Part shown: piece by piece, positions 42,967 to 46,555 of the stretch
Layout of the letters: each line of letters starts with the position of its first letter
Numbering within the stretch: position 1 is the first letter of the stretch
Source: Haloplanus aerogenes
Lineage (GTDB): Archaea; Halobacteriota; Halobacteria; Halobacteriales; Haloferacaceae
DNA length: 64,000 bases
NCBI RefSeq assembly: GCF_003856835.1
Contig: NZ_CP034145.1
Location: forward strand, 1,798,001 to 1,862,000
Direction: 5' to 3'
Made by a program: the position numbers and the translations under genes
The notes under the pieces: model-generated
What the model was told of the DNA's origin: nothing
Seen by the model: only the letters and a program-made list of their open reading frames with translations
Database searches by the model: none

Positions 42967-43815
42967 GTGCAACCCATCTACCTTCTCTTCACGGGCGTGA
43001 TGGTGCTCGCGTCGCTCGGCTGTCTGTGGGACGCGTGGGGCGACCGCGAGGGACTGACCCTCTACGCCACCGCCGTCGTCTACGGCCTCATCCTCGAGAA
43101 ACTGGTCATCGTCGCCTTCGGCGCCTACACCTACCCCGCCGAAGCGTATCTCTTCGACGTGCTGGGGATTCCGCTGGCCATCGCCTTCGGGTGGTCGGCG
43201 GTCATCTACGCCGGGACGACCACCGCGCGGGCCTACGGCGTGCCCCTCCGGTCGCTCCCGGGCTTCGTCGCGCTCTACGCCCTCCACATCGACCTGTCGA
43301 TGGACGCCATCGCCATCCGGGTGCCGTTCTGGACGTGGACGCCGCCGGGGCCGTGGTTCGGCGTCCCCCTCGGCAACTTCTTCGGGTGGTTCTGTGTTGC
43401 CTTCCTGTTCGCCGGCTGGTTCGAACTCCTGCGTCGGCGGATTTCGAACCCCCTCGCGCTCGGCGGCGGGACGCTCGTCGCCGCGCTGGCGACGCTGCTC
43501 GTCTTGCTCGAACTCTGGACGACGTTCGTCGAGTCGGTGGCGCTCGGGGCCGGCATCCTGATCGGTCTCGGCGTTCTGTCGGCCCTCGCGCTCCTCCGCT
43601 GGCCGCCCACGTTCGCCGACAGACCGGCGCGGACGGCGGTGGCCGCGACGCTGCTCTTTCACGGCTTCTTCATCGCGATGTTCGTCGTGACGGGGACCTA
43701 CCGGACGCTCCCGGTGCTTGGCGTCGTGAGTGTGGCGGCGCTGGGCGTCGGGGTCGGCGTGCACGCCCTGCCGGAGCGAGGAAAGCTTACGCGGCGGCGT
43801 CGAACGCGGCCATGA
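42967..43815 (+). CDS. Carotenoid biosynthesis-type membrane protein (DUF422/CruF family)
   Basis: 282 residues, eight or so helices. The DUF422 signature is visible around residues 100-150: [18 protein letters not shown] and [13 protein letters not shown]. CruF-type hydratases in haloarchaea act on bisanhydrobacterioruberin, but this gene is not next to lyeJ or crtD, so it may be a paralogue with another hydrophobic substrate. GTG 42967 is the start. Its last 29 bases overlap the end of rpoL on the other strand. Confidence 0.72.
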
Positions 43816-44071
43816 AGTCGTCGGTGAGGTCCTGCACGCGGCGGGAGGCGTCGGCCACGGCGTCGAGGGGGTCGGTGCCCGATTCGGTCTTGACCGAGAG
43901 AATGGGGTCGGTCTGGCCGCCCGACTGCTCGGGATTCATGTCGTAGGTCGCCGCGGCGACGCCCGCCGTCTCCAGCAACGCCCCCTTGAGGACGTTCATG
44001 AACGTGTGATCCTCGCCCGCAATCTCCATGCGAAGTTCCTCGTCGGTTTTCTCGATGACCCGCAGTTCCAT
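43787..44071 (-). CDS. rpoL: DNA-directed RNA polymerase subunit L
   Basis: 94 residues, the normal RpoL length. [33 protein letters not shown] is the conserved core, and [12 protein letters not shown] matches the second part of the family. It dimerises with RpoD in the polymerase assembly platform. ATG 44071 was chosen; the longer frame has no homology. Upstream, TATA-like cttatta (44109-44115) may drive it, and beyond that lies the chain of hairpins. The 3' end overlaps the DUF422 gene by 29 bases. Confidence 0.9.
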
Positions 44072-44436
44072 ACCCTCCGGTACCGGTGGTTCGCGTTTCA
44101 ACCTTTCGTAATAAGCGCTCTCCGAACGAACGGGCGACGCCTGAGTGGCGTCCCCCGAACGGAGAACGTACGGGACCACACGAGGTGGTCGTCCGACTGA
44201 CCAAGCCACTGCGAGGAGCACCTGACTCGCAATGTGCTATGCGATACTATGACGCGCCCGGTGAAACACCGACCACGTCGGTTCCTAGGTTTACGTATGT
44301 GCTAAAAAGCCTGTTGGCTAGACCAATATATTCCACAATTTGAACTCTCGGTGTTCGTATGTCTGTATTTCTTGCCGATGGAGGGACATCTACGCATTCG
44401 AAGGTTACATCGATTGGCCGACTGGACGTTCGGCCA
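44072..44436 (-). other. 365-base spacer with a chain of hairpins upstream of rpoL
   Basis: Perfect stems: GACGCC/GGCGTC (44136-44152, extended by CGGG/CCCG), GACCAC/GTGGTC (44174-44190), TGGTC/GACCA (44186-44203), TGCGAG/CTCGCA (44210-44231), TCGCA/TGCGA (44227-44244), CGGTG/CACCG (44259-44271) and ACCGAC/GTCGGT (44268-44282). Several share an arm with the next, so they exclude each other. On the minus strand a TATA-like aatatatt (44325-44332) could start a transcript near 44300 running through them into rpoL. A small AGCC/GGCT stem with a T run (44304-44319) may end the upstream gene. Confidence 0.5.
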
Positions 44437-45063
44437 TCAGCGAACGAGATAGGGCTCGTTGCCCGCGACGAATCGGCCGAGGTCGCTCTCGCGACGGTAG
44501 TCGGTCGCGCGGAGGCGGTCGAGGGCGGCGACGAGGCTACTCGCGTCGTCGGAGTCCCACGCCGTCGGCTCGCGGATCGGGACGACGAGCCACCCGCTCC
44601 CCAGCACTTCCGTCGCGTGCAGGCTGTCGACGTCGAGGTCGGTCGTATCGTGGGCGGTACACGTCTCGAGGACGTGGCGGATCGCCCGTTCGCCTACGGG
44701 GAGGAGGACGTGCGCGGCGATGGCGCGGAGTTCGGCGTCGAAGAAGGGTTCCATGGCGGCGTAGTCGTCGTCGGTCGGCTCCCCCTCCGAAACGCACGTG
44801 TGGAGGTAGGAGAGGTAGGTCTTGTCCACCTCGGGGTCGTCGCCGGTCGTTTCCAGGAGGTCGGCATCGTGGAGGGCACGCTGGAGTCGCCGGCCGGCGG
44901 CGCATCCAGTGAACGGGACGCCCGTCTCGGCGCCCCCGTGGATGCCCGGATGATCACCGATCACGTGAAAGTGAGCGTTGGCGTCGCCGTAGCCCGGGAC
45001 GAACCGCTCACAGGGAGGCTGCATCCCGAACGGGTTACTGACGCGGTCGGTGACGTTTCGCAC
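44437..45063 (-). CDS. Uracil-DNA glycosylase family protein
   Basis: 208 residues. Motif A is VIGDHPGIHGGAETGVPFTG near residues 34-53; a later LLPVGERAIRHVL and VPIREPTAW support the UDG superfamily fold. It should remove uracil or related bases from DNA. The exact subfamily is uncertain because the second motif is divergent. GTG 45063 is the start. Downstream lies the hairpin-rich spacer; upstream, six bases separate it from the DUF5793-like gene, so the two are likely cotranscribed. Confidence 0.72.
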   Translation of the reverse strand: MRNVTDRVSNPFGMQPPCERFVPGYGDANAHFHVIGDHPGIHGGAETGVPFTGCAAGRRLQRALHDADLLETTGDDPEVDKTYLSYLHTCVSEGEPTDDDYAAMEPFFDAELRAIAAHVLLPVGERAIRHVLETCTAHDTTDLDVDSLHATEVLGSGWLVVPIREPTAWDSDDASSLVAALDRLRATDYRRESDLGRFVAGNEPYLVR

Positions 45064-45069
45064 GGATAT

Positions 45070-45543
45070 CTAGAGTTCGACGCCGGACGGGATGAGACTC
45101 TTGGACCGGAGGAGGCTCCCGTTGGCGTCGTAGACGAGGAACGTACTCTTCGAGTAGGTGGCGACTGTCTCGCCGTCGATGCGGATGACGACGCTGTATC
45201 GGCCGCCGTCGTCGTCGGTCGACTGACCGTACTCGCGCGCGGCGCGAACGAACCGCAACACGTCGTCGGCGTCCTCGTTGAGTTCGAGGAGGAAGTCGCC
45301 GGTGATGCGGTCGGTGACGCTGACGACGCCTGCCGCGTCCGGATCGTCCAGCGGATCCTGGAGCCGGAAAGTTACGTCCGTCTCGGACGCCTCCAGCAGG
45401 TTGCCCTCCGGATCGGTCAGGCGGTCGGTGAGCGTGTCTTTCGGTCCGTCGAAGTCGATAACGACTCGGGGCTCGGCCGGTGGGTCCCCGGTCTCCACCC
45501 AGTCGATGTTGTGTACCGCCAACTCGAAGTGGTCGCGCCTCAT
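45070..45543 (-). CDS. DUF5793-like haloarchaeal protein
   Basis: 157 residues starting MRRDHFELAVHNIDWVE and ending SLIPSGVEL, with VVSVTDRITGDFLLELNEDADDVLRFVRAAREYG in the middle. From memory this is the DUF5793 family, found across haloarchaea, function unknown; the beta-rich fold suggests a small soluble domain. A strong ribosome binding site (aaggagg) lies about ten bases before the ATG, so the mRNA is not leaderless. Cotranscribed with the glycosylase gene six bases downstream. Confidence 0.75.
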   Translation of the reverse strand: MRRDHFELAVHNIDWVETGDPPAEPRVVIDFDGPKDTLTDRLTDPEGNLLEASETDVTFRLQDPLDDPDAAGVVSVTDRITGDFLLELNEDADDVLRFVRAAREYGQSTDDDGGRYSVVIRIDGETVATYSKSTFLVYDANGSLLRSKSLIPSGVEL

Positions 45544-45673
45544 TCCCTACGCCCTCCTTTGAGTTCAGACGGTATGAACGTAACGCCCCGCGTCAGACAC
45601 GGATCGTCGCCAGACGCTGGGCGCTCGTCGCGCCCCGCCGTCGCACACAGAAGCCGAGGCGACGCCCACGATT

Positions 45674-46555
45674 TCAGTCGCTGGTAACTGACTCGTGACT
45701 CGCCGTCGTGTCGACGTGTTCGGTGACGAGGATCCAGCCCCGGGAGGTGAGTTCCACTTCGCCATCCGAGAGTCGGACGAGGTCAGCCCTCGAGAGGCCA
45801 CGGAGGACCGCCAGCGATTCGGTCGGCGACCCGTCGAACAGCGTCGACGGCGTGGCGGTGCCGCGAAGCGAGTAGAGTTTATACAGCGCCTGAACGGCCA
45901 CGGTGGGGAGGTCCAGCGTCCGAACCGACCGTCGAATCTCGTCGTACTCCTGTCGGAGGTGGCGACCCAGCAGGTGCTGTTTTCGCGGCGGGTCGAGCGA
46001 CAGTTCCAGCGTGACCGCTCGGCCATCTTTCACGTACTGCACGGAGACCATCGTCCGCCGATCTCCGAGTAGTTCGCCCTCGGACTGCGAGAGGTGGACG
46101 ATCCGGTCGAGGTTGACCCCGAACGGGTACGTGATTCCCGTACAGCCGACCTTTCCGGGCGTCACCCGCAAGGTGCCGATGTCGAACGTCTCGCCAGTCA
46201 CGCGACCACCCACCTCCGCCGGGTGGCGGATCGCGACCTCGGTGTCGTCGAGTAACCACCGATAGAGGAGGCCAGCGTACTTCTCGATCGAGCGTCGACT
46301 CCCGTCGACGAACAGCACCTCTCGGCGGCCGTCGAGTTCGAACCCGATGGTCAGGACCGTTCCGGTGAAAAATTCCGTGGCCGCCCGTGGCGAGGAGCCG
46401 ATTTTCACGTCGAACACGGCCGACCGGTCGATGGCGAGCGAACACGCCTCGTTGTCCACGCGGAGGTCGTCGCCGAGCGTGAGGCTGGTCGTGAGGGGCT
46501 CCGTCTGGGCGCACTCACAGAACGCCGTCGCCGAAAGCTCGATTGGCGTCGACAT
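45674..46555 (-). CDS. CheF-like taxis protein (DUF439 type)
   Basis: 293 residues. Two PH-like beta domains (about 25-95 with SAVFDVKIG, and 110-190 with LRVTPGKVGCTGITYPFGVNLDRIVHL) are followed by a long helix and a C-terminal winged-helix (LAVLRGLSRADLVRLSDGEVELTSRGWILV). This matches the CheF layout: CheF links the CheY/CheC/CheD taxis proteins to the archaellum. No che or arl genes are nearby, so it may be a stray paralogue. The family call is from pattern memory. Upstream, two tiny coupled ORFs precede the ATG. Confidence 0.6.
   Translation of the reverse strand: MSTPIELSATAFCECAQTEPLTTSLTLGDDLRVDNEACSLAIDRSAVFDVKIGSSPRAATEFFTGTVLTIGFELDGRREVLFVDGSRRSIEKYAGLLYRWLLDDTEVAIRHPAEVGGRVTGETFDIGTLRVTPGKVGCTGITYPFGVNLDRIVHLSQSEGELLGDRRTMVSVQYVKDGRAVTLELSLDPPRKQHLLGRHLRQEYDEIRRSVRTLDLPTVAVQALYKLYSLRGTATPSTLFDGSPTESLAVLRGLSRADLVRLSDGEVELTSRGWILVTEHVDTTASHESVTSD

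Follow-up and report, generated by a model that had tools for sequence, protein, structure and literature searches.

The small RNAs closest to the one described here come from Haloferax volcanii. In one published set, most of the sRNA genes of this species (22 of 27) are confined to it; the intergenic sRNAs H225.2R and hts10 are conserved in more than ten genomes (PMC3956466). The RNA reported in this work is likewise conserved and, in contrast to the bulk of that set, has both its sequence and its structure preserved in most genera of a family. H. volcanii sRNA_61 is described, in the parts of the report that concern it, as a chromosomal RNA of 111 nt with a 32-aa reading frame lacking a stop codon, found by an ORF search that allowed alternative starts. 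Its level was 4565 TPM in RNA-seq and 1851 (control) and 3381 (stress) TPM in Ribo-seq, and its tagged peptide was undetected (PMC12482152). STRG.2577.4 is intergenic and likewise 111 nt long, and no RNA in its study was more abundant, according to the passage on it (PMC5892119). Both differ from the RNA analysed here in having been published, in the passages concerned, without structure, family or function. Ribosome-associated ncRNAs are also known from H. volcanii (e.g., PMC6104027), and ribosome occupancy would be common to them and to the present RNA if the latter is sRNA_61.

We analysed a 64,000-nt stretch of the Haloplanus aerogenes genome (the window), in which positions 44281-44172 of the minus strand almost certainly hold an independent gene for a structured non-coding RNA, as judged from sequence comparison. 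This assignment follows from gene-like conservation, fixed promoter spacing, three covarying hairpins (P1–P3), two conserved exposed segments and independence from rpoL. The features of the locus are as follows.

43787..44071, minus strand: rpoL, RNA polymerase subunit L (Pfam PF13656, E 1.5e-15)
44095..44112, minus strand: rpoL's own promoter-like sequence ACGAAANNTTGAAACGCG, conserved upstream of rpoL in Haloplanus
44118..44171, minus strand: P4, an extra predicted hairpin of Haloplanus only (36 invariant columns in 12 Haloplanus genomes; arms do not vary)
44172..44281, minus strand: small RNA core (P1-P2-linker-P3), about 108–110 nt, matched by the covariance model
44174..44190, minus strand: P3 hairpin, GACCAC/GTGGTC (two-sided changes at 6 of 6 pairs)
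44195..44207, minus strand: linker GGCUUGGUCAGUC between P2 and P3, nearly invariant
44207..44234, minus strand: P2 hairpin, CATTGCGAG/CTCGCAGTG (8 pairs counted, 95.3% of cells paired, two-sided changes at 5)
44216..44225, minus strand: P2 apical loop UCAGGUGCUC, conserved; ACUGGUGCUC in most other genera
44251..44279, minus strand: P1 hairpin, GACGTG/CGCGTC closing stem (6 pairs, 97.3% of cells paired, two-sided changes at 4)
near 44279, minus strand: predicted 5′ end of the RNA
44303..44308, minus strand: predicted TATA box TTTTTA of the RNA gene, at constant spacing to P1
44323..44329, minus strand: conserved upstream element ATATTGG, overlapping most of a TATA-like site noted in the preliminary description
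44437..45063, minus strand: uracil-DNA glycosylase superfamily gene (Pfam PF03167), the usual upstream neighbour of the RNA

Upstream of the glycosylase gene, a DUF5793 gene and an archaeal chemotaxis CheF gene occupy 45070-46555.

The preliminary description had drawn attention to a chain of short perfect stems at 44131-44282, and these were found at their coordinates. The stretch contains 7 maximal perfect 6-bp inverted pairs (shuffle mean 2.4; 7 is reached by 1.4% of 1000 dinucleotide shuffles) and 16 5-bp pairs (shuffle mean 9.6; 2.7% of dinucleotide shuffles as high). The excess over chance is real, with more 6-bp stems than the four first counted and a chance expectation above the fewer than one first estimated. 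Folding of the minus strand gave −88.2 kcal/mol (z = −4.6; 0 of 200 shuffles as stable), and the plus-strand fold was weaker relative to its shuffles (z = −3.2). No Rfam family scored above the gathering cut-off in the window, where the sole match was at chance level (E = 3), and a tRNA search of the region gave no match. The RNA is a new family, absent from Rfam.

A BLAST search with the intergenic region against 60 relatives matched 20 genomes, comprising all 12 Haloplanus genomes (the window's own included) and, as a short core, eight further genera. The glycosylase gene lay just upstream of the RNA in all 20 loci; rpoL was not the next gene in every one of them. A covariance model scored 109 bits in the genome of the window (E 5.5e-18, single copy) and detected one copy each in 88 of 170 genomes of the family, in 20 of 28 genera, where the genus and family names of numbered genomes were inferred by us and the others taken from named records. 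With a wider model, rebuilt from 70 loci, 110 of the 391 genomes of the class were matched, all in the same family and none outside it. A pattern scan of named genomes placed the gene in Haloplanus, Haloferax, Halobellus, Halogeometricum, Halegenticoccus and Salinigranum. The RNA is absent from, or unrecognisable in, some genera of the family. The weakest matches, of Halorubrum type, adjoin the glycosylase gene and are supported by this position. No plasmid copies were found, and downstream of the glycosylase gene in other families there was no recognisable copy. In two genera without a model match (L126, L127), promoter-like runs and a common TGTCAGACCG lie near a hairpin downstream of the glycosylase gene; these are possible degenerate copies of the RNA. 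A 15-mer gave 46 matches in viral contigs, probably by chance.

The aligned relatives show, in order, the promoter region, a GACGCG...CGCGUC P1, P2 with its conserved loop, GGCUUGGUCAGUC and a GC-rich P3. In the P2 loop GUGCUC is nearly invariant, with GUACUC in Halorubrum-type members; the linker was identical in the first 16 sequences and is changed only in a few diverged members. Across the 70 loci, 95.1% of pair cells hold standard pairs. Two-sided changes that keep pairing occur at 15 of the 20 pairs (149 cells vs. 41 in shuffles), and the covariation score is 0.382, compared with 0.043–0.087 when the structure is slid and 0.193 in shuffles. Fitting the alignment to the model favours the structure somewhat, but the gap to the controls is very large. 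When partners were slid by 1–3 columns, pairing fell to 29–48%. Covariation in relatives had been named in the preliminary description as a means of checking the stems, and P1–P3 are both conserved and covarying in these 70 loci. A loop-linker pseudoknot was also considered and rejected, as its weak candidate pairs are not in the same register from genus to genus and, by eye, the loop that would connect them looks too short.

These data bear on two other classes of gene. A small protein could be encoded by the frame ...VLLAVAWSV..., which runs through P2 and the linker and is open in Haloplanus and Haloferax. Yet the lengths of P2 and its loop vary between genera by non-triplet numbers of bases, so that the frame shifts and the RNA is not coding, and compensatory changes track pairing, not codons. 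If sRNA_61 is the same RNA, the failure to detect a tagged peptide, as given in the part of the report on it (PMC12482152), points the same way, and we regard a protein product as extremely improbable. A guide for RNA modification, of the C/D or H/ACA type, would fit the small structured form of archaeal guides, and the catalogue of H/ACA guides in haloarchaea is poor (PMC2584109). Against this, a C box (RTGATGA) is present in 0 of 70 loci and CTGA in 12 of 70; ACA occurs anywhere in just 29 of 70, the hairpins are short and uninterrupted, without an internal pocket, and there is no Rfam match. The RNA is not a C/D guide and is probably not an H/ACA guide either; a guide function of any kind is highly unlikely.

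As to its expression, the gene would be transcribed from its own predicted promoter. In most of the 70 loci the centre of a T-rich box lies 26–28 nt upstream of the first base of P1, and this spacing leads us to expect the transcription start at the foot of P1. Across the family, most loci have ATTGG, or a sequence close to it, 13–14 nt before the T-rich box, and the combined pattern of ATATTGG and T-rich box occurs once in the genome; the ATATTGG element is a possible activator site. The minus-strand TATA-like run at 44325-44332, which had been proposed as a promoter for rpoL, does exist, though about 20 bases separate it from the constant-distance box TTTTTA downstream, and it belongs to the conserved upstream element. 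T-rich or pyrimidine tracts follow P3 in other genera and make it terminator-like there, and in most genera the transcript would end at this GC-rich hairpin. A promoter/terminator scanner with a bacterial-type consensus found nothing.

The RNA lies on the same strand as the glycosylase gene and is usually the next feature after it, an arrangement that would also suit a structured 3′ UTR of the glycosylase mRNA or a processing product of that mRNA. Such an origin is very unlikely given the constant predicted promoter 26–28 nt upstream of P1, and given that the RNA persists with no glycosylase gene nearby in three loci of one low-GC group (L078, L086, L258) and in three of one other genus (L249-L251). 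P1 is kept in all six, as is GUGCUC in the loop; some have a changed linker, and in L249-L251 P2 is shortened. The low-GC loci, in which the P2 loop is kept and the linker changed (e.g., AAUUGAUCA), are a natural test of linker function.

On the opposite side, the preliminary description had read the stems as typical of switching leaders or structured small RNAs, with a leader of about 230 bases for rpoL that would start at the TATA-like site. Of this, the structured RNA on the minus strand is borne out by covariation in 70 loci, and the leader is not. In Haloplanus the RNA does lie directly upstream of rpoL on the same strand, as a riboswitch or attenuator would. In most genera, however, it follows the glycosylase gene, and rpoL is adjacent, more than 1 kb away or outside the fetched stretch; in a few, the RNA stands apart from both genes. 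Since rpoL is not adjacent in most genera that have the RNA, the position before rpoL is not constant. Moreover, rpoL carries its own conserved promoter-like sequence about 25–40 nt before its ATG, and the same sequence stands directly upstream of rpoL in a locus without the RNA (L130), so that a 230-base leader is not needed. The mutually exclusive pairings on which switching would depend are not conserved. In the core RNAs of 20 relatives, ACCGAC/GTCGGT was found in 0 (it overlaps the core edge in this species), GTGGTC/GACCAC in 1, this species only, and TCGCA/TGCGA in 9, all Haloplanus. Such pairings seem to arise incidentally from the repetitive, GC-rich sequence of the RNA, not from a switch, and a switching leader of rpoL is hardly credible.

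To relate the gene to described RNAs, we examined its Haloferax orthologue. The predicted Haloferax transcript of 111 nt contains a single 32-aa stopless ORF, beginning at ATT, in 10 of 12 named loci; of the other two, one was ended early by the edge of the fetched stretch. It thus resembles sRNA_61, as described in the passages concerned, in both its 111-nt length and its 32-aa stopless ORF (PMC12482152). A longest open-ended ORF of exactly 32 aa is found in 6–8% of random 111-nt pieces, so this agreement makes the identity likely, not proven. We consider it likely that the Haloferax orthologue is sRNA_61, the two being likened by length and ORF description. STRG.2577.4, compared by description in the passage on it, is possibly the same RNA, being alike in its 111 nt and intergenic position (PMC5892119). 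For the new family, high expression and ribosome occupancy have probably already been measured in a model species.

The P2 loop and the P2-P3 linker are the most conserved parts of the RNA and are exposed, hence the natural reading is that a partner molecule binds there. We propose that the locus is a single-copy gene in its own right and that its product, a structured non-coding RNA about 110 nt long, would be abundant, would act in trans through loop and linker, and would most likely be associated with the ribosome or with translated mRNAs while acting. To this reading as a whole, the best explanation of the data, we assign a probability of roughly 60%. Ribosome association is suggested by a single line of evidence, the match of the Haloferax orthologue to sRNA_61, and a ribosome-linked action is a tentative proposal that we place somewhat below even odds. 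The more far-reaching view, that this is a family-wide housekeeping RNA of the Haloferacaceae, among the most abundant transcripts, acting directly on the ribosome via loop and linker and without counterpart among described archaeal RNA families, is unlikely to hold in full. A search for rRNA complementarity gave nothing convincing. In this genome a 13-base pairing of the linker (with G-U) is possible close to the 23S processing stem, and in relatives it is not at the same place; at the 23S 3′ end there are complements to loop and linker, whose order does not suit a simple duplex and which are not present in all genera. Both candidates were rejected.

The usual layout of trans-acting sRNAs is that of conserved unpaired segments with hairpins around them. 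With its two conserved unpaired segments flanked by conserved hairpins, the RNA could also regulate mRNAs in trans as an antisense RNA, pairing with them by loop and linker, without a direct role at the ribosome. H. volcanii does have trans-acting sRNA regulators, according to the parts of the reports concerned (PMC6560208, PMC12482152). Perfect complements of the linker in the 12 Haloplanus genomes shared no common genes, except for one homologous stretch found in two of them. At start codons in this genome there is a single exact complement of the linker (G000:C1:790038); it is not conserved, being absent in other genera and unshared within Haloplanus, and was dropped as a target. Antisense regulation of this kind is possible, with the odds rather against it. 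The family supplies a clear candidate for deletion, a covariance model with which genomes can be annotated, and defined bases for mutagenesis.

The Haloplanus transcript may be longer than the core and include P4. This hairpin was seen in no other genus, and across the 12 Haloplanus genomes it is nearly invariant, as conserved as the core RNA. A repeated element was ruled out, as P4 is single copy. In one congener (L005), part of P4 is duplicated.
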